Source of the DNA: Chrysophaeum taylorii
Taxonomy: Eukaryota; Sar; Pelagophyceae; Pelagomonadales; Pelagomonadaceae
Length of the DNA stretch: 64,000 nt
Direction: 5' to 3'
NCBI GenBank assembly: GCA_029834535.1
Contig: JAQMWT010000370.1
Location: 186,001 to 250,000, forward strand
Both the position numbers and the translations under genes were made by a program. Position 1 is the stretch's first letter. The number at the start of each line of letters is the position of its first letter. Below the pieces are notes generated by a model. It searched no databases and had not been told where the DNA came from. It saw only the letters and a list, made by a program, of their open reading frames with translations. Positions 17,501 to 48,800 of the stretch are shown piece by piece.

Positions 17501-19690
17501 CCCCTCCTCCGGGCCTCCGAGCCGGGCTCGACCGCCTGCAGCGAATGCGTCCAGTTCTACTACCTCAGCCGCTCGGAGGAGGAGTGCTTGCTCTGCGACA
17601 CCCACGTCACCTGCGATCCCGGCACGACCCTCGCGACCTGGAACCTCGACGAGGGTTATTGGCGCGCCGATCCCTCGACGACCCAAATCTACCAATGTCC
17701 CGCGACCTCGAGCTGCATCGGCGGCGCGGGTGCGACGGGCGACGACGACTCGATATGCGGCGACAACTTCGTCGGCAGGCTCTGCTCCTTGTGCGGCCCC
17801 ACCTACCACCTCAGCGGCACGCGCTGTCGTCGCTGCAAGGAGAGCTCGACGCACTTCGTCTACACCTTTGTCGCGATCTCGACGGTCGCCCTGGTGGCGC
17901 TTCTCCTCTTCTTCTCGGGAAAGCCCGCCTTCATGGTCGACCTCGCCAAGGCTGTCTCCGAGTCTCAGCGCAAGCGTCGCATGCACTCGCAGCGCCTCCA
18001 GCGCGACGTCCTCGAACGCCGCCTCCTCGTCCACCCCGAAAGGTCGTCTGTTGCTCTTATTGATGGAGACGTCTCGCCCGTCGCCAAGTCGGTCAGGCAC
18101 AAGAAGAACGCTTCCTTCTCAGGAGGAGGAGGAGGAGGAGGAGGAGCACCCCCGATCGCCGATTCTTCGAACGACAACACCGCCGCCGCCGCCGCCGAGG
18201 GACCACCGCGAGCCGCGACGAGCGTCGAGGCGGGGCCGGCCGACCGGAAGACCGAAGAAGAAGGAGAAGAAGACAAGCAAGCCCAGCAGCAGCAGCAGCA
18301 GGAGAGGAACAAGCGCAAGTCGCGGAGACTGATGAAGAAGTTGTCGTCGCTTCGGTCGATGGGGGGAACGACGACGACGACGACGAGACCGTTCTCGTCG
18401 CTGAGGTCTATCGAGTCGGGGAAGCAACGCAAGCTGGAGAACGCGCAGAACTCGGTGACTTTCATGCGGCTCTACGCGATGCTGTCGGTCAAGTGGAAAA
18501 TAGTGATTTCGGCATTCCAGATCCTCGCGTCGAACAGCACCTCGTTTCTCATCAAATGGCCTCCGGTCGTGAGTTTCTTGCTGGGATTTCTGTCGATCCT
18601 CAACGTGGACATCCTCTTCATTCCGCAATTCGCTTGCCTCCGGCGCATCAACCACTACAACCAGCTCCTCGCGGCCACGGGCCTGCCGCTCGCGCTGATC
18701 GCCGTGATCGCCTTCTTCATCATCGTCCCGCTCGACACGCTCGCCAAGGCCAAAAAGTGCTGCTACGAACAGCAGCATTCCAAGGTCGCTCTCGCGGTGA
18801 TCGTGCTCTTCTTCGCCTATTCCTCGGCGTCCCAGACCATCGCGCTCACCTTCGTGTGCCAACACTTCGAGGAAGCCAACGAGAGCTACCTCCGAACCGA
18901 CCTCTCGATCCGGTGCAGCGGGCTCACCTACCAGCTCTGGTTCGCGTACGCGGTCGCGATGATGTTCGTCTGGCCGCTCGGGATTCCTTTGCTTTTTTTC
19001 TGCCTCTGCTGGAACCGCAAGGCCCGCATCGACCCCGTCCGGATGACGAAAAAACACGTCGACGTGTCGTTGGCGACCAAGACGGAGGCGGTAAACCGCG
19101 CCGTCGCGCAGCGGCAGTTCGACCCCGACATCCACGACATCAAGGCCCTCTGGATGCCCTACGAGCCCGAGTTTTGGTACTGGGAATCGGTCATTAGCGG
19201 CCAGCGCATGCTCCTGACCTTCGTGGCGTCTCTCGTAAAGCCCGGGACCCCCGTCCAGCCGATATTTTGCCTCTGCGTCGCGATTTTCTTCCTGCGGATC
19301 CAGAGCTTTTACAATCCGTACTGCCACGACCAGGACGACGTCCTCGCCGAGGCCCTCGCCTGGATGCTCATATTTTTTTACGTCCAGGCCCTCATGTTCA
19401 TGCTCGGCTACGTCAGCGGCTTGACGATGGACGTTCTGTTGTGCGTCTCTATCGGGATCGCGGTCCTCGGAAGCGCTTTTTTGCTCGTCACCGACATCCA
19501 ACGCGAGATCCGCTTTTTGACCCTTTTTCGCAAATGGGTTGACTCGACCCTAAAGACGCGTCGCGAGCGTAGACCCTCGAATCGCCGCGACAACGCCGCC
19601 TGCTACGTCGTCGCCGCGCAGCGCGCGACGCGAGAAATCAAAGAATACTTCGGCGACGATGCCGCCGCGTCTCCCGCCGGCAGCAAAGTC

Positions 19691-19724
<34 letters not shown>

Positions 19725-20065
19725 GCGACGCCGGCGCCGAGGAGGAGGAGGAGGAGGACCTCGCGGTCGTCCCTGTCCCTTCACTTTCCCGCCGGGACCA
19801 CAGGGACAGCGTCGAGCTCGAACGCATCGCCGAGTCCGCCTCGGACACCGACGACGACGACGTGCTCGATCCCCCGAGTTTCTTGGTGAGTAGCGAGAGG
19901 CGGGCCGTCGCGCCAGCCGTCGCCATTGACTACTCGGACTCGGACGCCTTCGCCTCGCTCACCTGCGGCGTCAAGTCCGCGTGGTCCTCCCCCGTCGTCG
20001 CCGACGACGCAGACGACAGCAGAAACCTGCCGATCTGCGGCACCGTCTCGGGCTACTGGACCTAG
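14531..20065 (+). CDS. Large multidomain surface protein: LamG, discoidin-like, cadherin-like, Cys-rich, multi-pass membrane C terminus
   Basis: A 1844-residue protein from the ATG at 14531; the frame extends upstream only via GTG at 14492. Residues 1-23 are a signal peptide (Arg-rich then VVVVVVGVACA). A LamG/concanavalin-like fold follows (FSAWVRCRAQ..., GWHHFVSVVDRQ, GYMDEISLWSKALSAEEI). Next come cadherin-like tandem modules (DVVEDNEVTF, TVETLEDTM), a discoidin/F5-8C-like module ending in WNEIDYVELVGT, then FAGSDEFTYRVCDCG and VNDAPQVPS. A Cys-rich stretch of GCC2/GCC3 ephrin-receptor type (CAPCPPGRFADD..., CSLCTPGKYSD) precedes about eight membrane helices from about residue 1110 on, with an acidic/Gln-rich loop and a Ser/Asp-rich cytoplasmic tail. 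This combination is typical of expanded protist surface receptor families. Ligand and signalling output are unknown. Confidence 0.85.
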
Positions 20066-27200: not shown

Positions 27201-28763
27201 TCAGACTTTTTTTAAGAAGAGCCCGCGGCGGCGGCGGCGCAGGTTTTTTTTCGAAGAAGTCGGGAGTGGCGGTCGCAGCAGCACCACTGAAGGCTTGGCG
27301 GCGAGGTAGGCGCGCATGTTCGCCAAGGTGCGCCACTTGGAGTTCGAAACGCGACCCCACGGGTTGTCGTCGTCGAGGTCGAGGACGGCAGGGGCGAGGG
27401 CCCTGCCGATTCCGCGCCAGGCGTCGGGACCGAAGGGCTCGACGTGGCGGCCCCGGGGTCGCTGCTCGGGGGAGGCCTCCCTTGCCCTCGAGGCGGGGAC
27501 GTGGTTTATCGTCTTGGGACAATGGTAGTTGCACTCTAGCGTGTAGGCGGCGACGAGGCCAGCGTATTCGCGCACGGCGACGCGCGCGGCGCCGCGCGCG
27601 CTCGAACCGTCGCAGTCGACGCGGAGCATGTGTTCTTTCGAGAAGTTGCATCCATCAAAGTCGAAATAAGGCGAGTTGACGGAGAGAAGGAGAGGGTAGA
27701 GTTTGTTTTGGACGACGTCCTTGGGATCGTCGAGAGCGTTTCCGTAAGCGAACGCGCCGCGCTTCGTCGCGTGGGCGTGGAGATCCAAGAAGAGATAGAG
27801 GGGGCAGGCTTTCGCGAGAATCATGAGCGCGGCCTGTGCCGGGTAGACCCGGTGGTCGGGCCACGGGTAGTAGACGCGATTGAGGTTGACGCCGCGCGCG
27901 TCGCGGCGGTAGTGTCCTCGCGCGACTCCGTCTGGATTAAGCATCGGGACGATGCGCCAAACGTACTTTGCTCTCAGTCGTTGCGACCGCGCGTCCTCGG
28001 CAAGAAGCACATCGAGCAGGCCTTCCAACACGAAACTGGCGGGTGTCTCGCCGGGATGGACTCTGGCCCCGACGAGAATCGTCGGACGTCGACGACGAAA
28101 CATAAGCTTCTCGGCCGGCTCGATGCCAGCTCTCGCGTCCGGGAAGAGCCAGGTCTCCTCATCACCTAAAAACGTCTGGTCGTCTTCCTCAGATGAGGAG
28201 GAGGTATTTTTTGGGTCGGTAATTGTGACCAAGTCGACGCGACGACCCTCGAGACTACGGCAGAGCAGTTGGCGGCGGAAGTAAACGCCGCGCTTCGACG
28301 CTAGGACGCTCGCGTCTACGAGACTTTTCTCGAGATCCTCGCAACTATACGGATACGTAAAAGCGAAGGCTGCTTCTTCCTTGGCCTGGAATTCGTATTC
28401 CCACTGAACTTCGCCCGAATCGCGACGCTCGCGATAGTCTACGGGCGTCGAGAGCCTCGACCAGCCCGTTCCGTCGTCGACGACGACGCGAAACCCAAAC
28501 CGGTACAAGGCGCCTTGCTTGTTCATATTCACGATCTTAAATTTCGATTTCTGATGCTTTTCCGCACGCACCCGAAAGTGGAACCACGTGCAGCTGCGTG
28601 TCTCCTGAGGCGTGCCCTCGCAGTCGCGCGCGATTTCTAGCTGGTACGTCCCCTGGACAAATCTCGCGCATTTCAAGTTGCCCGAATCGAAATCGCTCGA
28701 AAACACCAGCCCTTCGCACGCGTACTCCTCGAGCCGCACCAAAGAAGGTGGGGCCCCCGTCAT
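27201..28763 (-). CDS. AGBL5: Cytosolic carboxypeptidase CCP5-like (tubulin deglutamylase)
   Basis: A 520-residue M14 metallocarboxypeptidase of the cytosolic carboxypeptidase family. CCP5 removes the branch-point glutamate from polyglutamylated tubulin. The N-terminal CCP domain (FSSDFDSGNL near 21-30, WFHFRVRA near 60, NMNKQGALYRFG near 79-90) leads into the catalytic domain. Zinc ligands are in VHPGET (H236, E239) and the LHAH segment at 328-331. The catalytic glutamate is E410 in YTLECNY. The blocks PMLNPDGVARGHYR, RGVNLNR and FDFDGCNFSKEHM specifically resemble CCP5 (AGBL5) rather than CCP1/4. The long insertion of animal CCP5 is missing, giving a compact enzyme. It diverges from the actin-related gene by 278 bp. 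Confidence 0.92.
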   Translation of the reverse strand: MTGAPPSLVRLEEYACEGLVFSSDFDSGNLKCARFVQGTYQLEIARDCEGTPQETRSCTWFHFRVRAEKHQKSKFKIVNMNKQGALYRFGFRVVVDDGTGWSRLSTPVDYRERRDSGEVQWEYEFQAKEEAAFAFTYPYSCEDLEKSLVDASVLASKRGVYFRRQLLCRSLEGRRVDLVTITDPKNTSSSSEEDDQTFLGDEETWLFPDARAGIEPAEKLMFRRRRPTILVGARVHPGETPASFVLEGLLDVLLAEDARSQRLRAKYVWRIVPMLNPDGVARGHYRRDARGVNLNRVYYPWPDHRVYPAQAALMILAKACPLYLFLDLHAHATKRGAFAYGNALDDPKDVVQNKLYPLLLSVNSPYFDFDGCNFSKEHMLRVDCDGSSARGAARVAVREYAGLVAAYTLECNYHCPKTINHVPASRAREASPEQRPRGRHVEPFGPDAWRGIGRALAPAVLDLDDDNPWGRVSNSKWRTLANMRAYLAAKPSVVLLRPPLPTSSKKNLRRRRRGLFLKKV

Positions 28764-31096: not shown

Positions 31097-31582
31097 ATGA
31101 TCGATGCGAAGTGGTCGTGTTCTTGCGGGAAGTGCGAGGTCGCCGTCAAGGGCGCCGTCATCGACGTGTGCGTGTGCCACTGCAACATCTGCCGGAAGTA
31201 CACGTCGCAGCTGTTTAATGCGGAAGTCGTACTCCCGGATGGATGCGTCACGGTCACCAAGGGGTCTTTAGTTTCTCACCAAACGAGCCCAGCAATGCTA
31301 CGGTATCACTGCGGAGGCTGCGGCTCCAATTTGTACGAAAAGGGGACGAGCTTTCCCCTCGAGTTCGCGCCGCTGGTTGCGGTATTGGGGAAAAACAACT
31401 CCGTGCCGAGCCACCTCGCGCCCAGAAAACACATCTTCTACGACGACCGCGTCGTCGACGTCAACGATGACCTTCCCAAGTACGAGGGCTTCGACGTGGA
31501 CTACGCGAAGGATCCCCCCGAAAGCATCCCTCCGATCCCCGATCACGTTTTGGCCGCGACAAAACTCGCGGTCACGATGTAG
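31097..31582 (+). CDS. GFA/CENP-V domain protein
   Basis: A 161-residue zinc-binding protein of the glutathione-dependent formaldehyde-activating enzyme (GFA)/CENP-V fold. The cysteine pattern is complete: CSCGKC at residues 8-13, CVCHCNIC at 25-32, and YHCGGCGS near 75. These bind two zinc ions in family members. Start ATG at 31097 gives an N terminus (MIDAKWSCSCGKC) that fits the family exactly; the frame is open further upstream but without domain support. Many eukaryotic members have no proven substrate, so the enzymatic role is not asserted. The 3' end overlaps the TTLL gene by 11 bp, tail to tail. Confidence 0.9.
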   Translation: MIDAKWSCSCGKCEVAVKGAVIDVCVCHCNICRKYTSQLFNAEVVLPDGCVTVTKGSLVSHQTSPAMLRYHCGGCGSNLYEKGTSFPLEFAPLVAVLGKNNSVPSHLAPRKHIFYDDRVVDVNDDLPKYEGFDVDYAKDPPESIPPIPDHVLAATKLAVTM

Positions 31583-33159
31583 CGGCGGTGGTAATAATGG
31601 ACCGTTTGATGCGGCGGACGTAGTCGTGCAGAGGCCCGGGGGCGAGTTGCTCGTAGGCACCCGGGGTGGAAGGGGGCTCCCCGTAGCGCCGCGGGACCCC
31701 CAGGAGGATGAGGTTGAGGTCGGCGTTGAGGAGTCGTTCGTCGTACGCTCGGCGGGCCTCGGCGGCGCGCAGTCGGCGGTCCATGACCTCGACCAATCGC
31801 GCGCGGTCGTACCGGAGCGGCGCGACGAGACCCACCGTGTCGCGGATCATCGCCTCCTTGATGAGGCAATCGAGCCTCGTGTCGCGGGCCATCGACGGCG
31901 ACGCGTTGACCTCCAGCAGCCACGGGCGCATTCCTTGGTCCAAAATCACGTCGTACCCAAAAACCTCGAACGAGTTGGGTTGGTGCGGGATGCTGTCTTC
32001 GACACACACGAGAGACTTGAGCACGAGAATGCAAATCTCGCGCCACGCGTCGTCGAACCAACCTCTTTCCACCGCGCGAGTTGCCTCGAGGCGCCGTCGT
32101 AGGTACTCGAGACTGCACTTGGTGCCGCCGGCTTCCTCGGGCGACGCGAACCGGAGGGGCGCACACGACTCGCCCGATTTCCGCTGGATCGACGCGTTCG
32201 TGAGGTGCACTATCTTGTCGCGAAGCGAATCGATCGAATATTCGCGAGTCGCGACGCGCGCGAAGCCCGAGCGGTAGATAAACACCTCGAGGGGAGAAAA
32301 CGAGGTCACCAGCACGTACAACCGGAGGTCGAACTTGTGGGAATCGAGGAGCAGCGGCGCGGCGAGGTACTCCTGGATGACCACGGGCTCGGAGTAACGC
32401 ACGTCTTCTAAATCGCTCGCGAGACTGATGCCTCGGCCGCGCGACAGCCCGACGGGCTTCATGATCCACAGACTCCCCGGTGGTTTCGCGCGCCACGCGT
32501 CCACAAACCCGACGTAGTCCTGTGGCAACAGAAACGTCTTCGGTACGATGTCGAACGCCCCGGCCAGCCGGCGCGCCGTGCTCTCGGGCGCCACCGACAC
32601 GAGCTTCTGGTACCGTCCGACGGCCCGCGCGAACAAGTCCTTCCGCGTCAGCTGCCGCGAATTCGGGTAGTGATTCACGCGCTGCCACGCAAGAAGGTGT
32701 GCGTAGTCGATTCTCGGCTTGGACCACGTCCACAGCAGGTTCCACGTCGTCTTCAGGCCCAGACCCGACGGCAGTTCCACCCAATCCGCGCACTGCCCCA
32801 GCACCTGGCTCACGATATCAAACACCTCGGGCCTCGACGAATTCACGCGAAAATGGAGCGCCGAGCTGTCGCCGGCGTACACTTCTTTGCTGCCATCGCT
32901 TTGTTCCCCAAACACCGCGCCGTAGTCGGCCATGATCGCCTCGAACGCCGCGTACAGACGCCACTGCCGCGCCATCGCCACCCGCACGTCCCCGGGTGGC
33001 GGCCGATGTCGCTTCTTCGCGCATCGAGACCACTGCGAGAAGATCGAACACCACTCGCCGTGCACCAGCCCGAAATCGATCATTTTTCTTTTGGCCAGGA
33101 ACATCATCGGAGATAAACTACTTTTTTCGCCGCGACCCTTCTCGGCACCCTCTTCTTCC

Positions 33160-33195
<36 letters not shown>

Positions 33196-34421
33196 GTGGT
33201 GGTGGATAAAACCCCCTCAGTGATTCTATCCTCGCCGCGTGGAACAAGAGCAACCTCCTGGGTGTCCAACTCTGATTCTTTGATATTTTGAGGGCTGACA
33301 CTTTCCTCTTTACCTTCGTCCAGTCTCGTCGTCTCTCGCGCGCGCGCAGAATCGTCGTTTTCAGCAGCAGCAGCAGCAGCTTGGGCATCCTGTTGTCCGG
33401 TCGGAGGCGATACCTGCGGTAGTTGTTCTTCTTCCTCCTCCTCGAGCCTCGCGTCTTCCGCAGTTACTTCCAGCTCATCATCATCATCAACAAAGGTCGT
33501 CGAAGGAGGTGCCTCTTCCGTGGGAACGACGACAACCACCTCAGCGCTCTCGGTCGTCGTCGTCGTCGTCGATAGAGGTGCCTCGAGGCTCGCCGCGCTA
33601 CTGGCAGCTTCCTCGTCGAACTTTGCTGGTGCCTCTGTTTCGCGTCGAGCATCTGCTCGAGGTTCCACGATCGCCTCCTGCAGGGACTTTGGCGGTGTTT
33701 CGCGTCGAGCATCAGCTTCCACCGCCTCCTCCTCTTCAGGCTCGAGGGCCACTCGTAGTCTCGATAGCTCCAAGCCACTTTCAGCATCGCCTGGCGCTCC
33801 TTGTCGTTCCGAACAAGCGAAACTTGGGGCGTCCTCGTCGTCGTCGTCGCTGACCGACTCGCTGTCCGAAGAAGAAGAAGAAGAACAAGTAGGGCGCGGC
33901 GCGTTCGTTTTCCCGAGGCGACCCGCGCGGCGGCGGCGGCGGATCGCCCTCTGGTCGATGCGTTGCTGACGGCGCGCTTGCAGGCGCGATATCGCCGCTT
34001 TGCGGCGTTCCCGTCTCTGCTGGTCGACGGCGAGAACAACAGCTTTACCACGACAAATTTTCTTTCGTTGCTGCTGCTCGCGAGCCCGGCGCGCGAGGCC
34101 GCCGTCGCCGCCGGCGACGACAAAGGTCTTGCCCCAAGAGCTCGAGGAGGCCTCCTCCTCGAGCCGCCTCGTCGATTGGCCAAGAGATCGGCGTTTCCGG
34201 AGCTCTTCGCGAATCGCCTCGTCCTGGCGGCGGACGTAAGCTCCCAACGGTCCTTCGTCGTCCGCGAAGAGGTGCGAGCAGGACTGGAGGTGTTCGAGGC
34301 GATCGGTCGCGGCCCCGGGAATGTGGTCGAGCTGAATGAGGACATCATCGTCTGATGATGTCGTCGCGGCGGCGCCTGCTGGTGGTGGTGCTGCTGCTGC
34401 TGCTGCCCTCGCCGCGCGCAT
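31572..34421 (-). CDS. Tubulin tyrosine ligase-like protein, TTLL9-like (tubulin glutamylase family)
   Basis: A 949-residue protein. Residues 1-430 are low-complexity (Ala, Glu, Arg, Ser rich) with a twice-repeated EPRADARRETE / EADARRETPP motif. The C-terminal half is a TTL domain: HYPNSRQLTRKDLFARAVGRY, WIMKPVGLSRGRGISL (ATP-grasp lysine and Gly loop), VVIQEYLAAPLLL, HKFDLRLYVLVTSFSPLEVF, KIVHLTNASIQ, and the metal-binding end PWLLEVNASPSMA. The pattern around LTRKDL and HKFDLRLYVLV resembles the TTLL1/TTLL9 group, which builds glutamate side chains on axonemal tubulin. The reaction is ATP-dependent glutamate ligation. The opposing CCP5-like enzyme is encoded 3 kb away. Subtype is inferred. 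Confidence 0.88.
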
Positions 34422-34562: not shown

Positions 34563-37241
34563 ATGGGCCTAGGGTCGCTCGAGCCCAAGTTCTTCCCGCG
34601 GCGCGCACCTCGGCAGAAATGGAGCCTCGAGAAGCTGATGGACGTGCTGTCGTTGAAGTTCGCGACCCAGAGTTCGTCGGTGCGGCGGGCTTTTCGGGGC
34701 GTGGCCGTGCCCGGGGAAGACAGGATAAACCCGGAACAGCTGAAACGGTGGCTGCACTCGCTGAATTTGGGCGTCGGGGCCAAGCTGTCGCGGCGGTTGT
34801 TTGACAAGCTCGACAAGGACGGCTCGGGGACCATATCGTACGAGGAGTTCCGGTCGGCGTTCGGCGAGACGATCAGCGGGGCGGCGTATGAGGGTCGAGA
34901 GTTCGTTTTAGGCGAAACCGAGCACGCGCAACGCGTTCGCACGATCTTTGAGGCGGCGAAGAGACGAAAGACGCCCTTGATCAGCGTCGACGAGTGCGTG
35001 CGCGTGTTGCGCGAGAGAATGGCTTCGCAACACTCCAAGGTGCAACGCGCGTTCCGGTCGCTCGACAAAGACCATTCCGGATATTTAGAAAGGCAAGAGT
35101 TTGAACGAATGCTCGCGATTCACAACGTCCGGCTCGCCCCGATTGCTTTGGACGAGCTGATAAAAAGAATCACGTCGGAGCCGACGGTGTCGTACGAGGC
35201 GTTTAAAAAGTTTTTCGGAGAAGATATCGCGGGAACGGGTTTTCAGAATTCGACGTCGACGGAGCGCGTCTGCGATCACGATCATGCTTGGGGCAAGGCG
35301 AACGCCGCCTTCGCTGCGTACATGTCGTCTCCAAAGAGACCCAAGCCCCTCGCCAAGCTCTGGACACCAGCGGAGTTTTTGGCAACACTCGAGATGGCTT
35401 TGTCGTCGCGGTCCAAGAGCGCGCGCAGGATCTTCCGCATGGTCGACGCGGATCAGAGCGGACATATTGACGCCGAGGAGTTCCACCGCGCGATGCTCAA
35501 GCTCAACATCAACCTCTCGCCGGCGGAGTCGAAGCGCTTCTTCCTCATGTTCGACGAGGACAACTCGGGCTCGATATCCTACGCCGAACTCACCAAACAT
35601 ATCGGCTCGATCGTCTCCGGCTACAAAGACACCGGCGTCCTCACGATGAAGGCCGTCGTCGAGGAGGCGCCGACGACGACGCACTTTGTTGACGACGCGC
35701 GGAGAACGCGACCCGCTGCTGTCTCCTCCTCCTCCTCCTCCTCCTCCTCCTCCTCGGAGGGGATTCCTGCTGCTGCTGCTGCTGCGCGGTACGCGCTCCC
35801 GCAGATGAAGGAGCTGATCGCGCGTCGGCTCGGGAACAAGTACCTCTCGGCGTGCGCCGCGTTCCGCGAAATCGACAAGGACCACACCGGCACGCTCTCG
35901 GAGGACGAGATCCGGGCGTTCTTGAAGAACCGGAACATCGAGTTCCACGACGAGGACTTCAAAGTTCTTATGAGCGACATCGGACGGCGCGACGACGGTC
36001 GAGTGCAGTACGACGAGTTCGTCAGGTCGTTTGGCGAGGCGATTTGCGGCGCGCCCTGGGAATCTGCGCAGCAGCAGCAGCAGCAGACGAGCCTCCCCGA
36101 CCTCGCTGCCGAGGGCCCGCCGGTGGTGTCCAGGGCTCAAAGCGTCCTCCCGACGCTGGGGCCCGAGGAGGCCCTCCAGAAGCTTCGCGAGAAACTCGGG
36201 GAGACGACGGCGTCGGTGAACCGCCTCTTCAAGCGGTACAACAAGGGTCGCGCCGGAAAGCTCGACCCAGACCAGGTGGCGCTCATGTTCAAAAACTACA
36301 ACCTAGAGGTCGCGGACATCCAGGCTGTCATTTCTCTCGTCCGAGCGCGCCACCGCGAAGAGGACGACGAAGAGATCGACGGCGGCGGCGGCCTGAGCTA
36401 TCGGGTGTTCGCTGCCGAGTTTGGGCCCTCGATTGCGGGTCACCGGTACGAGGGTCTGGTCGACCCGTTCGCCGACGCGGCCTACAGACCCATCACGCTC
36501 CCGCCGCCCGCCCAGCCGGTCACTGCCGAGCAGGCGAAGACGATGTTGCTCCGCAAGCTCGCGACCAACTTCGCGCACGCGCGACGGGCCTTCGTAAACT
36601 TCAACACGGTCCGCGACAACGTTCTCGATCTCCAAGAGCTGCGCGCGGGGCTCGAAAAGTACCACATACGCATGGAGGACGCCGAATACGACAAGTTCGC
36701 GTCCGACTATCACGACGGTTCGGGCGAGATTCAGTTCGACGCCTTCGTCCAGAACGTGGGTAAGGCTGTCTGCGGCGACCAGGACCAAGGTCTCTCGATC
36801 ACCTTGAAGGCGCGCGACGACGCGATCAAGCTCAAGCGGAAGGAGTTCGAGGCCAGTTTCCAGGAGATCGGCGACGCCGACGACCCCGAAGAGGACGAGG
36901 AGAAGTTGCCTTCTTCTTCTTCCAAGGCGGATGATGATGATGGTGATGATGAAGCCCCCCTACCCCCGGTTTCGGAGGAAACTCCCCCCCCACCACCACC
37001 ACCACAGCATGTTGCGCAAGACAAGAAGCTCAAGCAGACGCTCGTCGTCGTATCCTCTTCTTCTTCTTCTTCTTCTAAGAAAAAACGACCGCCCGCCGCC
37101 GCCCGGCGTCGCCGGGCCGCGCTGAACAACGCGAAGACGCACTGGCGCGTCGTCGTCCAGGAGGAGGACTACGCTGCGCCGGAGACCACCACACTCCGCA
37201 CCTCGGTCTCGGCCCCTCGCATCGTGTGCCACCACGCTTAA
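34563..37241 (+). CDS. Multi-EF-hand protein built of six repeated modules
   Basis: An 892-residue soluble protein. Good calcium-binding loops are DKDGSGTISYEE at 84-95, DKDHSGYLERQE at 168-179, DADQSGHIDAEE at 295-306, DEDNSGSISYAE at 331-342 and DKDHTGTLSEDE at 438-449. Others (near 472, 560, 600, 700, 740) are degenerate. Each pair of EF-hands is followed by a trailer of the form F/VG-x2-I/V-x-G-x2-Y/W: FGETISGAAYEG, FGEDIAGTGF, IGSIVSGYKDTG, FGEAICGAPWE, FGPSIAGHRYEG and VGKAVCGDQDQG, defining six modules of about 115-150 residues. Ser, Gln and Asp/Pro runs link modules and the basic C-terminal tail. Family unnamed; probably a calcium-binding cytoskeletal or flagellar protein, which is inference. 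Confidence 0.88.
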   Translation: MGLGSLEPKFFPRRAPRQKWSLEKLMDVLSLKFATQSSSVRRAFRGVAVPGEDRINPEQLKRWLHSLNLGVGAKLSRRLFDKLDKDGSGTISYEEFRSAFGETISGAAYEGREFVLGETEHAQRVRTIFEAAKRRKTPLISVDECVRVLRERMASQHSKVQRAFRSLDKDHSGYLERQEFERMLAIHNVRLAPIALDELIKRITSEPTVSYEAFKKFFGEDIAGTGFQNSTSTERVCDHDHAWGKANAAFAAYMSSPKRPKPLAKLWTPAEFLATLEMALSSRSKSARRIFRMVDADQSGHIDAEEFHRAMLKLNINLSPAESKRFFLMFDEDNSGSISYAELTKHIGSIVSGYKDTGVLTMKAVVEEAPTTTHFVDDARRTRPAAVSSSSSSSSSSSEGIPAAAAAARYALPQMKELIARRLGNKYLSACAAFREIDKDHTGTLSEDEIRAFLKNRNIEFHDEDFKVLMSDIGRRDDGRVQYDEFVRSFGEAICGAPWESAQQQQQQTSLPDLAAEGPPVVSRAQSVLPTLGPEEALQKLREKLGETTASVNRLFKRYNKGRAGKLDPDQVALMFKNYNLEVADIQAVISLVRARHREEDDEEIDGGGGLSYRVFAAEFGPSIAGHRYEGLVDPFADAAYRPITLPPPAQPVTAEQAKTMLLRKLATNFAHARRAFVNFNTVRDNVLDLQELRAGLEKYHIRMEDAEYDKFASDYHDGSGEIQFDAFVQNVGKAVCGDQDQGLSITLKARDDAIKLKRKEFEASFQEIGDADDPEEDEEKLPSSSSKADDDDGDDEAPLPPVSEETPPPPPPPQHVAQDKKLKQTLVVVSSSSSSSSKKKRPPAAARRRRAALNNAKTHWRVVVQEEDYAAPETTTLRTSVSAPRIVCHHA

Positions 37242-41083: not shown

Positions 41084-43369
41084 TCATGAGATGGCGCACT
41101 TGCATGATGTGGCGGCGACCTGGTTCGCCACGGCGCCTGGCGCGAGGGTGGGGCACGGGGCGGTCACGGGATCCTCGAGCAAGTTGAGCAAGGCAGCTGC
41201 TTTCATTCTGTTGCTGGTGAAATCGGCTTCCTCCCGGATAGACTCGAGGCCCCGGATGATCCCCTTGTACTTCAAGATCTTGGCCTTGAACTCGGGCTTG
41301 TACTTGACGAAGTGCCACAAGAGGTCAATAGAATCTCGGTCGGTGTCGTTGTGATAAGGTCTGATGACGAAGGGCACGATGACGTCGATGCCGTCTTCGG
41401 CGGCGATGTGATCGAGGTTCTTGGGGGTTATGGCGAGGCACACGAGCAAGCCGACGAAGGCGCGGCGGTCCTCGCGGTTGGAGGTCTTGAGGAGCCTGAC
41501 GAGGGTTTTGATAGTTCCGGTTTCCGCGATGCGCTCGACGTTCCGCACCGAGGCTCGGGCGAGGACGGTCAGGAGGCGGGCCGTGATGCAGCGCGCGCGC
41601 CGGGGGCTGTTGCCCTGGAGGATGCCGACGAGGGCGGTGATCGCGTTGTTTTTGACGATCTCGTCGCAGACGTGTTCGTCGCCCTTGACGAGGCCGACGA
41701 GCGTCTCTCCGGCGTGCTCGACGATGGACCAGTTCACGGCTTCCTCGCCGTGTTCGTCGGTTAGCGACTCGGCCGCGTCGACGAGTTGGACGAGGCGAAT
41801 GGCCGCCGTCGACTTGTTGTCGGCTTTTTGGAACGCGTTCTGGAGGAGCGTCCGCGTGACCGCGAGCTGCGAGTCGAGGGTCTCGTTGTCGTGGCCCTCC
41901 CGCATGTGGATCAGCCGGAGTAGCGCATTGTAGGCCGGCTCTATGCGGAAGACGCACTTGCTGTCGTCCTCGGAACACACCTCCCCGTCAAACTCAAAGT
42001 CGTCGTTTTCGTTTTCGTCGTCGTCGTCGTTTTCGTCGTTTTCGTCGTTTTCGTCGCCCCCCCCGGACGTTGCCGTTGCGGCGGTGGCCAGTTCTCCGTC
42101 GGCGGCGTCGCCGGCAAAAGATTCTGCTTTAGCTCCCCCCATTCCTCCTCCTCCGAGGGCGTCGATGAGTATGGAGAGGGCGGCGCCCTTGATCCGACTG
42201 GCGCGCTGCGCGGAGACCGCGTTCCGCCACGGTTCCAGGACCAATTCGTACTCGGCGAGCTGGATGACGGTCTTGGCGAGAGCGTGCTGCATGCGTCGTC
42301 GGCCGCTCGCGTACCAACGACCTTTGTGCGGGTGGTGGTGGTGGTTTCCGGGGGCGCCAGCGCTTTGAGCGTCGGAAGCGTCGGCGAGCATGAGGGTGAG
42401 GGCGCGGATCGAGAGGAGGAGGCGGTCGCCGTGGGCCTTTTGCTTGTCGGTCATTTGGGGCGGGCCGGGCAGGCCCTTGGCGCGCTTGGTCATGCTGAGG
42501 CGGGGGTCTATCGAGAAGGCGGCGGCCGAGGCGACGAGCTTCAAGACCGGTTCGACGAGGTCGGGACCCGAAGCGAGGACGGCGGCGCGATAGGGCTCGT
42601 CGCCGTCGTCGTCGAGGAGCTTCCAGAGCTCGAGGAGGGGCCGCAGGCTGTAGAGTTTGTCGTCGAAGGCCTGGAGTCTGACGACGACGGCGCAGACGAC
42701 CTTCTCGTGGCGTTCGAGGACGTCGATTCTCGCCTTGGGCTGGGAGACGAGGGTCTTGAGGGCGCTGGAGACGAGGTCGAGGTCGCCCTTGCTGGAGGCG
42801 CCCGAGAGGAGCATGTCGACGAAAGGCCCGGCGGCGCCAGCGGCCACGACGAGGTCGGCTAGCTTGTCGTCCGATCGGCACGCGTTCGCGATCTTGTTGG
42901 CGACGGCCGCCTTCTCCCGCGCGGTCGCGGTCGCGTCCCGGAGGCGGCCGATCCAGGTGCGGAGCTCGACCGGGAGCGAGATCCAGAGTTCGTTGTCGTT
43001 GGCCTCCTTTCTCACCACATCGGGCACATCGGGAGGGGGGTTGTCGACGCGTCTGGCCCGGGAGGGCGGACCGTCGACGACGACGCCAAAGACCGGGTCG
43101 CCCGGATCCTTGAGGTTTTCGGCGTTAGCGATCCGGAGCTGGCAGACCACCGGGACGCCCTCGAGGTACTCCGGGACCTCGAGCCAGCCGTGTTCGTCGT
43201 CGAGATACTCGAGCTCGAGGGAGAGCCGTCTCTCTTCGAGCTGTTCCTCGAGGCGGAGGGCCCGGGCCACCGCGTCGTGGATGTCGTCGACCGTGAGCGC
43301 CAAGACCCCCGCGACTTTTTTTTTCGTGCGCCGATTTGGCCTTTCGACCAGCAGCGTATATTGCTGCAT
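41084..43369 (-). CDS. Armadillo-like helical repeat protein with CaaX-like C terminus
   Basis: A 761-residue soluble protein from the ATG at 43369; the longer frame begins at a GTG. The N terminus (MQQYTLLVERPNRRTKKKVA...LTVDDIHDAVARAL) may be a small ubiquitin- or PB1-like fold. The rest is alpha-helical with armadillo-like periodicity: AAVANKIANACRSDDKLADLV, NNAITALVGILQG, AETGTIKTLVRLLKTSNREDRRAFVGLLVCLA, EDGIDVIVPFV, and LKYKGIIRGLESIREEADF. A Gly/Asp/Glu linker sits near 480. The last residues, SCKCAIS, form a CaaX box (CAIS) with a second Cys two residues upstream, as in farnesylated and palmitoylated proteins. No specific family is recognised. It is divergent from the receptor gene with a 205-bp spacer. 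Confidence 0.75.
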   Translation of the reverse strand: MQQYTLLVERPNRRTKKKVAGVLALTVDDIHDAVARALRLEEQLEERRLSLELEYLDDEHGWLEVPEYLEGVPVVCQLRIANAENLKDPGDPVFGVVVDGPPSRARRVDNPPPDVPDVVRKEANDNELWISLPVELRTWIGRLRDATATAREKAAVANKIANACRSDDKLADLVVAAGAAGPFVDMLLSGASSKGDLDLVSSALKTLVSQPKARIDVLERHEKVVCAVVVRLQAFDDKLYSLRPLLELWKLLDDDGDEPYRAAVLASGPDLVEPVLKLVASAAAFSIDPRLSMTKRAKGLPGPPQMTDKQKAHGDRLLLSIRALTLMLADASDAQSAGAPGNHHHHPHKGRWYASGRRRMQHALAKTVIQLAEYELVLEPWRNAVSAQRASRIKGAALSILIDALGGGGMGGAKAESFAGDAADGELATAATATSGGGDENDENDENDDDDENENDDFEFDGEVCSEDDSKCVFRIEPAYNALLRLIHMREGHDNETLDSQLAVTRTLLQNAFQKADNKSTAAIRLVQLVDAAESLTDEHGEEAVNWSIVEHAGETLVGLVKGDEHVCDEIVKNNAITALVGILQGNSPRRARCITARLLTVLARASVRNVERIAETGTIKTLVRLLKTSNREDRRAFVGLLVCLAITPKNLDHIAAEDGIDVIVPFVIRPYHNDTDRDSIDLLWHFVKYKPEFKAKILKYKGIIRGLESIREEADFTSNRMKAAALLNLLEDPVTAPCPTLAPGAVANQVAATSCKCAIS

Positions 43370-43574
43370 GGGAGGACACACTGCCGCCCAGATGATGATG
43401 ATGTCGTGGCTCTGCCCGAAGCTTCCGGGCAATTGTGTAAGGGCAAGGTGCACATATATGAAAAATCTGCTGGGGACCTCCTTGCAGGCAAACCTATATC
43501 CAAATTAGGATTCGGTCACACCTTGCAGTTGTTGGGTGATCGTAATTAATTCGTTCATTCAATCGATAATCAGG
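43370..43574. promoter_or_regulatory. Putative bidirectional promoter between divergent genes
   Basis: The 205-bp gap between the start codons of the armadillo-like gene (minus strand) and the receptor gene (plus strand) must hold both 5' leaders and promoters. An AT-richer part with GTAATTAATTCG is at 43541-43552. No defined promoter element was identified. Confidence 0.4.
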
Positions 43575-46500
43575 ATGCGGCGGCGGCGGTATGATGGGAT
43601 CTTCTTCATCATCTCCTGGATGGTGTGGTCCCAGGCGGCGGCGCAGCAAAGCAACTCGACGACGACGACGCTCATCGTGACGTCTCAGGTCCTCGGGGCG
43701 GCCTATCCGGTCGACAGCTCGGGGACCGAGTGTGCCGCAGAGACGTATCTCGCGACGCCCTGCGCGTGCTTTGGAGGGGCGGCGCGGCGCGCCGCCTTTT
43801 TGGAGGATGATGATGTCGTCGGCATCGACATGGGGGGGTATTTTTTTGGGTCGGGTCTCTTCTACGAGACCTTCGAGGGCGGGGGCTCGGCGCGGCTCTT
43901 CAAGGCATCGGGGTACGCGGCGCGCGGCCTGAACTCGAGGGACTTTTCGGTCGACGATTCGGCGCTCGCGTCGCACCTCAACGCGTCGGGCGTCCCGACG
44001 GTAGCGTCAAATTTCAACGCCACTTTTCTGGACGATGTGGTGGTTCCCTTCGCGGTCAGCGGAGGCGTGGCGGTCGCGTCGCTCTTGGACGACGATGCGG
44101 GAGGCGGGAACCTGCTGTCGTTCGAGCGGTCGGTGATAGACATCCTCGGTCAACTTCAAGGAACCGACGAGTTGAGGGTCGTTCTGATCCCGGGCGGCAT
44201 CCCCGAGACGGACGTGATCGAGCTGCTGCCCGCGGAGGGCCACGAGCACGAGGATTCCCTCGACCGCCAGGAGAGCGCGGTGGTGGCGATCGCCGCGAAA
44301 TTTCCGTTCGACGTCGTCGTCCTCGACGGTTCGACCGAGCTGGGGGCGAGATTTTCGACGCCGCGGATTATCGAGTCGTGGCTGAACGGCGAGGTCGCCG
44401 TGGTCGCGACCCCCGCCGCCGCGGATCGGGGCACGCGGATCGCGCGAATCCGCGTGATGTCGCGGGATGGCTTTTACAATTCGGCGACCGTCGAGGAAAT
44501 AGTTTTAGATTGCGACGACGTTCCGCGGGAGGCGTCGCGACAGTTGCTCGACGACCTCAAAGCCGAGGTCGACGCGGATATCGCGACGCGACCCGTTGGG
44601 TGGATAGACGACGACCTCCAGGAGGTTGGGTGCATCCGGAACTCTGTTGTTGAGGACGACGGCGGCCCGGAGTGCGGGTGCGCGGTCGCCGAATGCGACG
44701 TCGGCAACCTCGCGGCCGACGCGGTGCGGTGGTTGGCATCCACAGACGTTGCGCTCGTTCTCGGCGCGGACCTCGGGGACGCGAGGATCGAGCGGTACCA
44801 AGTCACGGCCGGCGCGATGCTCTCGGTCGCGCCCTTCCTCGGGGACGAGATCGTCGTGGTCCGCGACGTGACGGGACAACAACTCAAATCCGTGATCGAA
44901 GCATCGTTCGCGACGGAGCTCCGGTGCCCGACCAGTCGCAACGAAAGCTCGGTTCTCCAGGTGTCCGCGGGGCTTGAGGTGACGTGGTTCTACGACACCG
45001 AGGCGACCCCCCTGCTGGGCGACGTTTTCTTCGAGGGTACGGTCGTCGACGACGACGAAGTCTTCGACGTCGCGACCTCGAGCGACCTTTTGGTTCAACA
45101 ACAACAACAACAACAACAACACCGTTGCGGTGCGTGGTTGAACAACAACAACAACAACAACAACGTCAAGCTGGGGGTCCCGACCTTCTCGGCCATCGTC
45201 CAGTACATGTCGGAGGTCCACGGGACGCCCGATTCAGCGCTCGTGCCGTCGCGGGAGTACGCTTTACCGCGCATTTCGCAGCTCGAAGACCGGTCTCGAG
45301 TCCACGTCGCTCTTCTCTGCGGCGACGATCGGTTCTGGCTCGAGCACTGCGACCACGCGTATCACGCGATCACGCAGATCGACAACCACCACGACGGCGT
45401 CTTCGACGACGTCCTCCCGAACGTGAAGCTGACCCCCCACAACTTCCACATCGGGTGCTCGGAGGGACGAGCCTACGACGGTCTCGTTTCCCTCGCGAAT
45501 CAAATTGCCCCCGATCCCATCAGCCTCGTGATCGCTGGGTGTTCGAACGACGTTGCCGAAATCGGATCCGTCGAGGCGCGTTCTCGAATGGCCGTCGACG
45601 CGCCCGCGACCGGAGGCGACTACGTCATCATATCGCCGGGATCGACGGCGCCGTCTCTCGCCGACGACGAGGCTTACCCGTACGTCGCGCGGATCACCAC
45701 GCCCGACAGCGAGAACGGGCTCGGGGTTGCAAGGATGGCCGAGTTTTACGGATGGGGTCGCGTCTGCGTCGTCCACGAGGATTCTCTCTTCGCCACGGAG
45801 ATGGCGCGGGCCTTCGTCGAGAAGTTCCGACTCTCGAGCCCGAATTTCGCGGGCGACGAGGCCAACGAAGTGCTGGGGGGGGGAAGGTGCGTCTCGACGA
45901 ACGCCGCGTGCGAACTCGAGATCGAAGACCCCATCACGAACCAAGCCGTCGGGATATCGGTGTCGCTCCGGGACTTTCACGGAGGTCGCCTGAACATGAC
46001 GGACGTCGTGCTCGCGGTCGCCGAGACCGGGGCGAAAATCGTGTTGCTGGCTGTTTTTGAGGCGCTGCAAGAGATCTACGAGGCCGTCTCCGAACTCGAC
46101 GTAAACCACGGCGTTGGGTACGCGTGGATTTCGGCCTTTCCTTCCGAAGACTCGCTCATCGATAGGGCGACGGGCGAGACGAACAACGCGGCCGTCGACG
46201 GCGCGGAGGGCGCCGTAGGCTTCTCGGAGCGGACGCCTTCCTACGGCGAATGGAACGCCACGACAAACTACCTCGATGCCTGGGCCGAAGTTTCTGGTCT
46301 CGAAGGCTGCGAAGGGGATCCGCTCGAGTGCTGCGACCAAGACCGGGATTATTTTTGCGACTTTGACGGCGTCGACGCGAGCGTCACGGGATTTGGCCTC
46401 TACTATGCGGATTCCGTATACCTCTACGCTTCGGCGCTCCACTCGCTCGGCGAAACAGATGCCACAAAACTCGACCCCTCGGTCGTGTACGACAGAATCA

Positions 46501-48800
46501 AGGAGACGGCGATCGACGGCGCGACCGGCCACATCGTCCTCGAGGACGCCTCGGGCGATCGTCTCGGCGTCTTCGACTGGCTCAACCTCGTCGTGACCTA
46601 CCCGAGCCGGAACCGCCGTCGAAAACTCTCGGCCGTCGAGCTCCAGACCGGGACGGCCGAGTTTGTGGTCGTCGGCGAGTACGACGCCGAATCCGACGCG
46701 GTCACCAAGTCGCAGGACGTCATTTTCCCCGGTCTCACCACAAATCCCCCCGCGGACCGCGACCCGGCGGTGGCCGACGGCTCGTCGAAGAACAACAACA
46801 ACAACCGCACGGCGGCGAGGCTCAACTTGATCATCTTCGTCCTCCTCGGCGTGATCGGCTCGCTCTGCGCCGCGGGCCTCTACGCCCACTACCGCCGCCG
46901 CACGCCCATGTACGACGGCGACCTCGACAAGCTCTTCCGAATTACGCGAACTTTCGACCCCGTCTCGGGTCTCGTGCAGCCGCTGCCCAAGGAAGACACG
47001 AGCGATTACGGACGCGAACCGCCGAGCAGGGAACGGAGCCAAGACGAGAAGTTCGACCAGCGATCCGAAAAAGAGGAGGACGACGAGGAGCACGTCGTTT
47101 TGTTGGGGAGGATCAATACCACCGCCGCCGCCGCGGCGACCGAAGAGCCGCCGCAACCTCGACTACCCCACCTCGCGCGGCAGTTTGCGGTCGACGCGTG
47201 GTACTGGCTCGGGGACGACGACGACGACGACGCCTGGCACCCGTACGACGAAGATCTCCAAAACACCATAACCCGCGCGTGGCGCGACTTTCACGAGCAG
47301 GTTGGTCACTTCCTCGACGACGACGAGAATCCCTCCTCGCGCAATTTGAGCAGTAGTAGTACTTTTGGCGGCGGCGCCGCGGCCGCGGCCGCCGCGGCGG
47401 GAACCCCGATCCTGACGCCGCACAACTCGATCGAGTTCGAGTTGGATGGCGGCGCCAAACACAAGATCGTCTTTTCGGCCGATCCAACGCAGGTCGACTT
47501 CGCCCACATCAACACCGAAACCTTCCGGACGCGTCCAGTCAAGCGCCGGCCGTTGGCGCGTCGCGTCTCGATGACGTGGTACTTCGAGGAAACCCCGCGC
47601 AAGACCCAAGCCGAGTGGGAGCCCGAGCCCGAATGGACCATCCCCCCCCTCCCCGGGACCGCGTGGCGCGCCTTCTCGGACCGGGCCCAGCCCGCGCTCT
47701 CGGCCGCGTACGCGAGCTGGCTCGCGGGCTTCTCCGAGCCCCAGGTCTACCTCAACGACGAGTGGAACAGGACGTCCCAATTCGACGCCTTCAAGTGCTA
47801 CGAGGTCAACGTCCAGACCCTCGTGCAGACCCGCGTCGCCTCGGGCTTCGAGCGACCCATAAAAATCGTCTTTGCCAAGCCCCCGCCGACCGAGGCGACG
47901 GCGGCTGCCGAACTCGACGGTCGTCTCCGGGCGACGGCGCGGCCGGATCGCGTCGGCTGCGACGCCTGTCTTCCTCTCGAGATCGACGACGTCGTGGCGC
48001 TCAAGACAACCCTGGGCGGCGGGGACGTCGACGACGACGGCGAGTGGGGCCTCGGTGTTGTCGTGAGCGATAAGACGCGACGCACTCCCGCCGGCGCTCG
48101 CGAAGGCTACTTTCCGCTCGCCTGCGCCACCAAATTAGTGGATCTCCCCGCCATCAAGGGCCTCGAGGCCTTCCGCCAGCCCCGCTGGTGGGACGTCGGC
48201 AACGGCGAGCCCGTCCAGCGCCGCACCGTAATGCGCGACTCGGACGAATGGCGTGCCGTTTCGGACGGTTTCCACCTCGACGACTGGAGCATCCACGACG
48301 TCGAGCGCATCCAGGACGTCTTCAAGTGGCAGCAGTACGGCATTGCCGTATCGCAGGTCCGCAAGCGCTCCAAGACGACCTCCGCCACCGCCGACCTCTT
48401 CGGATCCAAGGTCTGGCTCGACCACGAACGCGTCCCGGTGTATCACGGCACGCGCCGCGAGAACGTCGACAAGATAATCAAAGGAGGCTTCAAGCCCGGC
48501 TTCGCGAGCCCCGAGGCTCGCTACGGCCGCGGCGCCTACTTTGCCGTCGCCTCGCAGCGCGCTCTTTTTGCACAGTGGGCGACTCCGGACGACGACGGCA
48601 TCGTCCACGTCTTTCTCTGCCGCATCGTCTCCGGAAAATACCGCCGCGGTGCCAACGCCGACAAGGACGCCGGCGAGGACTACGACACCACCGTCGACGA
48701 TACCAAACAGCCCCAGATCTTTGTCACCTACGACGTCCAGCAGGCCTATCCGCTCTACTACGTCCAGCTCAAGAACAACCTTGACCCCGTCTCCTTCTAG
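43575..48800 (+). CDS. Transmembrane receptor: 5'-nucleotidase-like + periplasmic-binding-protein-like ectodomain, TM, WWE-like + SH3-like + PARP catalytic domain
   Basis: 1741 residues from ATG 43575; the upstream frame has only a GTG. A signal peptide covers 1-25. Residues about 30-510 resemble the two-domain 5'-nucleotidase/UshA family: the C-terminal part is clear (CDVGNLAADAVRWLASTDVAL, VTAGAMLSVAPFLGDEIVV, VTGQQLKSVIEAS), but the DxH and GNHE metal motifs are absent. Residues about 570-1050 resemble type 1 periplasmic-binding/ANF receptors (DPISLVIAGCSNDVAEIGS, EFYGWGRVCVVHEDSLF). A single helix, LIIFVLLGVIGSLCAAGLYA, is at about 1086-1105. Inside are a WWE-like domain (VSMTWYFEETP to FERPIKIVF, about 1332-1434), an SH3-like segment (WGLGVVV...EGYFPLACA, about 1466-1520), then RIQDVFKWQQYG and the PARP domain: VYHGT (His), YGRGAYFAVAS (Tyr), IFVTYD. 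The triad reads H-Y-I, as in mono-ADP-ribosyltransferases. Confidence 0.8.
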   Translation: MRRRRYDGIFFIISWMVWSQAAAQQSNSTTTTLIVTSQVLGAAYPVDSSGTECAAETYLATPCACFGGAARRAAFLEDDDVVGIDMGGYFFGSGLFYETFEGGGSARLFKASGYAARGLNSRDFSVDDSALASHLNASGVPTVASNFNATFLDDVVVPFAVSGGVAVASLLDDDAGGGNLLSFERSVIDILGQLQGTDELRVVLIPGGIPETDVIELLPAEGHEHEDSLDRQESAVVAIAAKFPFDVVVLDGSTELGARFSTPRIIESWLNGEVAVVATPAAADRGTRIARIRVMSRDGFYNSATVEEIVLDCDDVPREASRQLLDDLKAEVDADIATRPVGWIDDDLQEVGCIRNSVVEDDGGPECGCAVAECDVGNLAADAVRWLASTDVALVLGADLGDARIERYQVTAGAMLSVAPFLGDEIVVVRDVTGQQLKSVIEASFATELRCPTSRNESSVLQVSAGLEVTWFYDTEATPLLGDVFFEGTVVDDDEVFDVATSSDLLVQQQQQQQQHRCGAWLNNNNNNNNVKLGVPTFSAIVQYMSEVHGTPDSALVPSREYALPRISQLEDRSRVHVALLCGDDRFWLEHCDHAYHAITQIDNHHDGVFDDVLPNVKLTPHNFHIGCSEGRAYDGLVSLANQIAPDPISLVIAGCSNDVAEIGSVEARSRMAVDAPATGGDYVIISPGSTAPSLADDEAYPYVARITTPDSENGLGVARMAEFYGWGRVCVVHEDSLFATEMARAFVEKFRLSSPNFAGDEANEVLGGGRCVSTNAACELEIEDPITNQAVGISVSLRDFHGGRLNMTDVVLAVAETGAKIVLLAVFEALQEIYEAVSELDVNHGVGYAWISAFPSEDSLIDRATGETNNAAVDGAEGAVGFSERTPSYGEWNATTNYLDAWAEVSGLEGCEGDPLECCDQDRDYFCDFDGVDASVTGFGLYYADSVYLYASALHSLGETDATKLDPSVVYDRIKETAIDGATGHIVLEDASGDRLGVFDWLNLVVTYPSRNRRRKLSAVELQTGTAEFVVVGEYDAESDAVTKSQDVIFPGLTTNPPADRDPAVADGSSKNNNNNRTAARLNLIIFVLLGVIGSLCAAGLYAHYRRRTPMYDGDLDKLFRITRTFDPVSGLVQPLPKEDTSDYGREPPSRERSQDEKFDQRSEKEEDDEEHVVLLGRINTTAAAAATEEPPQPRLPHLARQFAVDAWYWLGDDDDDDAWHPYDEDLQNTITRAWRDFHEQVGHFLDDDENPSSRNLSSSSTFGGGAAAAAAAAGTPILTPHNSIEFELDGGAKHKIVFSADPTQVDFAHINTETFRTRPVKRRPLARRVSMTWYFEETPRKTQAEWEPEPEWTIPPLPGTAWRAFSDRAQPALSAAYASWLAGFSEPQVYLNDEWNRTSQFDAFKCYEVNVQTLVQTRVASGFERPIKIVFAKPPPTEATAAAELDGRLRATARPDRVGCDACLPLEIDDVVALKTTLGGGDVDDDGEWGLGVVVSDKTRRTPAGAREGYFPLACATKLVDLPAIKGLEAFRQPRWWDVGNGEPVQRRTVMRDSDEWRAVSDGFHLDDWSIHDVERIQDVFKWQQYGIAVSQVRKRSKTTSATADLFGSKVWLDHERVPVYHGTRRENVDKIIKGGFKPGFASPEARYGRGAYFAVASQRALFAQWATPDDDGIVHVFLCRIVSGKYRRGANADKDAGEDYDTTVDDTKQPQIFVTYDVQQAYPLYYVQLKNNLDPVSF

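Follow-up and report, generated by a model that had tools for sequence, protein, structure and literature searches.

The stretch of DNA analysed here, hereafter the window, covers 64,000 nucleotides of Chrysophaeum taylorii (contig JAQMWT010000370.1). On its plus strand, at 43575-48800, lies a gene of 1741 codons and a stop, which starts with ATG and remains in a single frame, the coding frame running over 43575-48797 and being closed by a TAG at 48798-48800; the single uninterrupted frame of 1741 codons claimed in the preliminary description is thereby borne out. Across the same stretch the other five frames contain 6, 12, 36, 40 and 41 stops, the fair openness of some of them being usual for GC-rich coding DNA, and a simple model of base composition puts the probability of a run of 1741 open codons at about 2e-20. 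Third-position GC ranged from 0.73 to 0.91 in each block of 100 codons examined, and the membrane segment shows no break. The stronger proof of the gene is given by its in-frame domains rather than by the length of the open frame: the domains named in the preliminary description are present in the order given, and 5_nucleotid_C, ANF_receptor, WWE and PARP are all matched by Pfam above the curated cut-offs. The profile check of the translation recovered both the PARP and the PBP-type domains (1.6e-10 for PARP and 7e-23 for ANF_receptor), and the NCBIfam scan of the protein gave zero matches.

The gene stands head-to-head with a frame on the minus strand (41087-43453) encoding an Armadillo-type protein (ARM_ARMC5 5e-8, below the curated cut-off), the two starts being about 120 bases apart, and it is possible that both genes share a promoter region. 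Elsewhere in the window, a cytosolic-carboxypeptidase-type M14 peptidase (27204-28763, minus) is found 2.8 kb from a tubulin-tyrosine-ligase-family protein (31575-34421, minus), and these neighbours could possibly be opposite modifiers of tubulin tails. A frame of 1857 residues (14492-20062, plus) probably encodes a large surface protein, given its matches to Laminin_G_3, Big_9, cadherin-like and ephrin-receptor-like domains, and a frame of 892 residues (34563-37238, plus) contains many EF hands (EF-hand_7 6e-46, in five stretches). In the genome as a whole, 84 matches to light-harvesting proteins were counted; for the one that was compared (L039), the nearest PDB entry is an LHCI (9vfj), followed by light-harvesting protein, iFCPI, VCPI and FCPI, with the red-lineage Lhcr and ACPI lower among the PDB matches, an order that suggests an alga with chlorophyll a/c, on the ochrophyte or haptophyte side.

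The N-terminus of the window protein carries a probable signal peptide (residues 1-23, 43575-43643). An n/h/c pattern is recognized by eye, but the hydropathy of the stretch stays below the cut of 1.6 used here for membrane stretches; an N-terminal hydrophobic stretch exceeds this cut in seven of the eight single-frame paralogues presented below, the eighth (L009) being without that part in its frame. Next comes a 5'-nucleotidase metallophosphatase part in degenerate form (about residues 26-330, 43650-44564), for which the family profile A2 matches the Thermus thermophilus 5'-nucleotidase 2z1a with 3.7e-15 and also CD73, followed by the 5_nucleotid_C domain (residues 366-503, 44670-45083, Pfam 8.6e-14). 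The metal-binding motifs of 5'-nucleotidases, which we take to be DxH, GD and NH, were placed by alignment to 2z1a and then read across the family. The His of the first motif is gone in all eight members read (L009 and L014, which lack that part, are left out of the count), its Asp being retained in L016 and L021; the Asp of the second motif and the Asn-His of the third are gone in 9/9. A working nucleotidase is rejected on these broken motifs in every member read, and on the same ground this part is most likely a pseudoenzyme, that is to say a binding or structural domain.

The ectodomain ends with a Venus flytrap of the ANF_receptor type (about residues 574-1055, 45294-46739, Pfam 7e-23). 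The Pfam match consists of two stretches (612-752 and 807-1006) which cover both lobes, and the flytrap profile A6 matches GABA-B2 (8e-13), mGluR5 (1e-10) and NPR-C (2e-8).

The membrane helix of the preliminary description was found at residues 1085-1103 (46827-46883) with a hydropathy of 2.45, and it is the sole transmembrane helix of the protein. One further stretch exceeds the cut, at 810-828 (1.84); it lies within the flytrap and is taken as part of the flytrap core, not as a second helix. The helix is followed by an acidic linker (residues 1104-1205, 46884-47189), which is open in the ten members of the family alignment (A1) and measures 62 to 116 residues in them. Since positive charge is found on both sides of the helix (the flank after it is net positive in 10/10 members and the flank before it in 8/10), the charges do not decide the orientation. 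Cysteine columns kept in at least seven of the ten members number 12 in the ectodomain and 2 in the tail. The domain families suggest that the flytrap is outside and the PARP domain inside, and the protein would have a type I single-pass topology.

The tail begins with a WWE-like module 1 (residues 1206-1333, 47190-47573), which profile A3 links weakly to the PARP11 WWE domain (0.011) and which shows a few invariant columns. WWE module 2 (residues 1334-1435, 47574-47879) is secure by its Pfam match (1.1e-7 at 1362-1430), and its profile retrieves HUWE1 from the PDB with a weak match (0.021). The tail could include a possible second WWE, weakly supported, which the preliminary description had overlooked. 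In WWE2, Y1409, Q1418 and R1427 are invariant in the ten members; in weak alignments to HUWE1 and PARP11, rather than to RNF146, they fall on residues of like kind. According to the available text on RNF146, the residues of its WWE domain that contact ADP-ribose are Y144, Q153 and R163 (PMC8853533), which makes a reading of ADP-ribose by WWE2 plausible. Further on, the SH3-like segment (about residues 1466-1520, 47970-48134) stands in so far as the family profile A5 weakly matches the SH3 domain of Caskin-1 (0.0034), but Pfam finds SH3_2 in only one of the ten members.

The PARP catalytic domain occupies residues 1551-1735 (48225-48779). Its Pfam match, at 1571-1699, reaches 41.3 bits for a cut-off of 26.7, and the PDB sequences matching the region are those of PARP15, 14, 10, 13 and 12 (best 4.2e-14, for PARP15), with RCD1 also among the matches; PARP15, 14 and 10 are the nearest. 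By alignment with PARP15, both the NAD+-binding His and Tyr of the PARP family are present, as H1624 (YHGT, 48444-48446) and Y1655 (GRGAYF, 48537-48539). At the third triad position the Glu of chain-forming PARPs is absent, and I1715 (QIFVTYD, 48717-48719) is found there, aligned with a Leu of PARP15. With this Ile in place of Glu, the His-Tyr-Ile triad leads us to file the domain under the mono-ADP-ribosyltransferase type. In the family, with the residues of split members read by eye, the catalytic His is kept in 12 of the 13 members read (the stretch of L017 not being read), the Tyr in 14/14, and an I, V or L occupies the third position in 14/14. The exception is L021 (1740-6128), which has lost the catalytic His and has a shortened ectodomain; it appears to be a natural pseudo-PARP receptor, and some family members are therefore probably inactive.

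The genome (70.8 Mb, 697 contigs) was searched with the window protein, and the 41 matches obtained were grouped into at least 14 loci built alike, located on contigs C370 (the window gene), C379, C323 (three in tandem), C125, C129, C149, C242, C388, C439 (three) and C606. The window gene is a member of this family, not a freak fusion. At nine loci, window gene included, both halves are in one open frame. Homologues split near the helix, the case that the preliminary description had set against its own reading, were looked for, and the eight single-frame paralogues, on six contigs, all carry the ectodomain, the helix (hydropathy 2.3-3.2, between the ectodomain and the PARP region) and the PARP region together. 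Five loci (C149, C388 and the three of C439) are broken into several frames, at places that are not clearly the helix; in C149 residues 181-1660 are in one frame and both ends in other frames, while in C388 and the three C439 loci the breaks may come from introns or from damage, and the pieces were left unjoined. The other members of the ten-member alignment share 28-48% of their residues with the window protein, and Pfam recovers ANF_receptor, 5_nucleotid_C and WWE in 10/10 members and PARP in 8/10; as these counts are known as totals and not by member name, the two PARP misses are attributed to L014, where the frame runs out of the PARP domain, and to the degenerate L021.

Selection was estimated per segment by the NG86 method, as point values of dN/dS without a significance test, on four close pairs, namely L013/L015 and the three pairs that the C323 trio provides. 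The ratio is below 1 in every segment of the four pairs, membrane crossing included, with 0.25-0.42 for the juxtamembrane region and helix, 0.08-0.14 for PARP, 0.11-0.34 for the nucleotidase region and 0.18-0.34 for the flytrap. The top value, 0.60, belongs to the SH3-plus-linker segment of L010/L011, which has very few changes (dS 0.013). The window gene is without a close paralogue of its own; against the nearest one, L009, its dS is 1.15, near saturation, and its dN/dS 0.42 overall and 0.29-0.62 by segment. From the ratios of the close pairs and the open frame, it follows that the region where two genes might have met is coding sequence under constraint in the relatives, and that it stays open in the window gene. 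By dS, the C323 tandem trio (L010, L011 and L012) is a mosaic: L010 and L011 are near-identical from WWE1 to PARP (dS 0.013-0.06) and diverge more in the ectodomain (about 0.16), and L011 and L012 differ little in the ectodomain (about 0.04) and more in the helix segment (0.17) and WWE1 (0.21). The pattern resembles that of gene conversion, or of sensors and tails having been exchanged.

A second type of receptor was found at two loci, L025 (C389, 1679-5758) and L026 (C673, 2174-5944), which carry, in one frame, a PstS-like ectodomain, a strong helix (hydropathy 2.6), a single WWE domain and a PARP domain. PBP_like_2 is matched with 2e-33 in L025 and 3e-30 in L026, and SH3 matches are weak; the L025 frame departs from the PARP domain short of the domain's end. 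Compared with the tails of the C125, C129 and C242 members, that of L026 shows 40% identity, and with the last 100 residues of C388 it shows 63%. Seen across the paralogues of the window gene, the joining of a PBP-type sensor to a PARP output, put forward in the preliminary description for the window gene, is real and recurrent in the same genome. A PstS-like ectodomain was also observed on a class C GPCR (L038, 352-4500; PBP_like_2 6e-22, 7tm_3 8e-31). Two other loci with a 5'-nucleotidase region and flytrap, L022 and L023, were compared with the window protein by local blastp at 1e-5 and yielded no match, PARP included, and Pfam found no PARP in three frames of L022 (3286-6789), whose downstream frame appears multi-helical by eye. 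Given the PstS-like ectodomain on both PARP and 7tm_3, and the nucleotidase-flytrap genes without PARP, the sensor ectodomains of this genome combine with different outputs. A WWE-PARP tail under a PstS-like ectodomain, together with the same ectodomain on 7tm_3, is what is expected if the ectodomain senses and the tail gives the output.

The genome has 18 matches to 5_nucleotid_C, with 14 on flytrap-type loci, and 21 matches to PARP, with 12 on flytrap-type loci and 2 on PstS-type loci, a search that C149 and C606 escaped. Four of the seven PARP places outside the receptor loci were read (C360, C552 and C122 being left out), and by eye no receptor ectodomain was seen in them (two in L027, then L028 and L041). 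A PARP tree was built on 17 rows (12 flytrap-type, 2 PstS-type and 3 solo; L014, L017, C480, C360, C552 and C122 omitted). It resolved neither the position of the PstS-type tails relative to the flytrap-type tails nor that of the solo PARP L028, which has a long branch, and so it gives no direction for the exchange of ectodomains.

Taken together, these data make it probable that the window protein acts as a receptor enzyme of type I with a single membrane pass, in which a ligand gates a mono-ADP-ribosyltransferase, and in its design the best reading is a natriuretic-peptide receptor in which PARP would replace the guanylate cyclase. Beyond the recognition of the domains, the following mechanism is proposed by analogy with receptor guanylate cyclases. 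At the plasma membrane, a ligand would bind the ectodomain, made of the dead 5'-nucleotidase and the flytrap resembling those of GABA-B and natriuretic receptors, by entering the flytrap. Closure of the flytrap, or a rearrangement of the dimer, would be passed through the one helix, as in receptor guanylate cyclases, so that two WWE-SH3-PARP tails come to be arranged in an active form. Spending cytosolic NAD+, their PARP domains could then mono-ADP-ribosylate one another or partner proteins that the SH3-like domain recruits, and the WWE module may read ADP-ribose and so reinforce the signal. Removal of the mark could be ensured by macrodomain and ADP-ribosylhydrolase proteins of the same genome, where macrodomain matches occur at three places and five ADP-ribosylhydrolase matches at three loci. 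An extracellular small-molecule signal would in this way be converted directly into protein ADP-ribosylation, as the preliminary description had supposed. As for the nature of the cue, the PstS-like and nucleotidase-like ectodomains suggest phosphorus, though the nucleotidase site is broken. At the scale of the family we lean, with some reserve, towards a new transmembrane class of receptor enzymes, ligand-gated ADP-ribosyltransferases, to be set alongside receptor kinases and receptor cyclases, with at least 16 loci in this alga and two exchangeable sensor types (pseudo-nucleotidase with flytrap at 14 loci, PstS-like of the phosphate-binding type at 2), which would turn perhaps nutrient or organic-phosphorus cues into ADP-ribosylation.

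Several other hypotheses could explain the same architecture. The one that survives best, while unlikely, is that of an active PARP that is not ligand-gated or not at the surface, the receptor shape serving as an anchor at an internal membrane (ER or vacuole) in the manner of PARP16, which the accessible part of PMC12377720 presents as a single-pass ER mono-ART. A signal peptide and a helix do leave the compartment unspecified, but it is hard to explain in this case why an ectodomain of 1,000 residues made of sensor folds would be kept with dN/dS below 1, and likewise why a PstS-like ectodomain would be placed on a similar tail. A little less probable again is a membrane-anchored pseudo-PARP, whose tail would be a docking scaffold (WWE, SH3 and an inactive PARP fold) recruiting partners like plant RCD1 or PARP13. 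These two proteins are indeed among the PDB matches of the window PARP, and L021 is without the catalytic His; against such a scaffold are the His in 12 of 13 members and the Tyr in 14 of 14, the low dN/dS of the PARP segment in the four close pairs (0.08-0.14), and PDB neighbours that are closest to PARP15, 14 and 10. We give distinctly less credit to a receptor acting by cleavage, in which the ligand or a sheddase would free the WWE-SH3-PARP tail to act in the nucleus or cytosol: this tail forms a WWE-PARP unit that is complete in itself, and receptor-free WWE-PARP proteins are known from the available parts of PMC2964712 and PMC4245714, and the linker length of 62-116 residues neither favours nor excludes it. 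Finally, two adjacent genes or a misassembly taken for one frame, which the several frames of C149, C388 and the three C439 loci might recall, hardly deserves belief when eight other loci on six contigs cross the same junction in one frame with a dN/dS of 0.25-0.42 there in the close pairs, and the two-gene or chance-frame reading is rejected on these paralogues and ratios.

Returning to the ligand-gated ADP-ribosyltransferase, relatives of the whole architecture were sought in viral and genome contig collections, in scans keyed mostly on ectodomain peptides, and none was found there outside this genome. In the viral collection, 58 pattern matches (ectodomain peptides and one WWE2 peptide) left no confirmed relative; in the genome collection, 152 pattern matches (ectodomain peptides) led to nine loci with 26-32% identity, all of them only within residues 67-505, and thus to the nucleotidase part of the window protein only. 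On these scans a bacterial or viral origin of the whole protein is rejected. Public algal genomes may well contain relatives that have escaped annotation. Among the titles and abstract openings listed for the open-access literature, outside which most subscription papers lie, no receptor with a PARP tail was found described.

Several known systems share parts of the design. Natriuretic-peptide receptors and the other receptor guanylate cyclases are single-pass proteins with an ANF_receptor ectodomain and a signalling tail, and the likeness is supported by the match of the window flytrap profile A6 to NPR-C. In these receptors, however, the tail consists of a kinase-homology region and a cyclase, whereas the window protein has PARP with WWE and SH3-like modules, an extra pseudo-nucleotidase domain outside, and no Pfam match to a cyclase domain. 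Class C GPCRs include the nearest PDB relatives of the window flytrap (GABA-B2 and mGluR), but the window protein has one hydrophobic helix after the flytrap and an enzyme in place of the seven-helix domain, and Pfam gives no 7tm_3 match in it. In the part of PMC12716839 available, 5_nucleotid_C is reported on choanoflagellate and other glutamate receptors, and ANF domains on some.

On the side of the enzyme, clade 3 PARPs (PARP7/11/12/13 and 10/14/15) have the same order, with WWE ahead of PARP, and share PDB matches with the window tail. The available text of PMC2964712 gives them one or two WWE domains before PARP, and clade 3E an Ile for the Glu; a sensor ectodomain is not mentioned for them in that text. 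Human PARP16 is described, in the accessible part of PMC12377720, as the sole transmembrane mono-ART among PARPs, single-pass and with the enzyme facing the cytoplasm. It resembles the window protein as a single-pass membrane protein of the mono-ART type, but it is placed in another clade (clade 6, in the available part of PMC4245714), and these texts describe no WWE or sensor ectodomain for it. The same part of PMC4245714 reports clade 3 PARPs with a transmembrane segment and PARP in a sponge and in rhizarians; no such receptor ectodomain is described there for them, the rhizarian ones having other domains, e.g. H_lectin.

If the proposed working is true, a ligand outside would be tied to the use of NAD+ within one molecule, which would offer a clean system for the study of how mono-ADP-ribosylation carries information, and a hint at the way in which an alga perceives its environment. 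Assays can be run on the tail by itself, and the His-less paralogue L021 provides a natural comparison. Well-known ligand-activated receptor enzymes act through phosphorylation, dephosphorylation or cyclic nucleotides. Single-pass receptor enzymes are a known kind and the PARP output is new, and the proteins described here would constitute a new receptor class if gating is shown.
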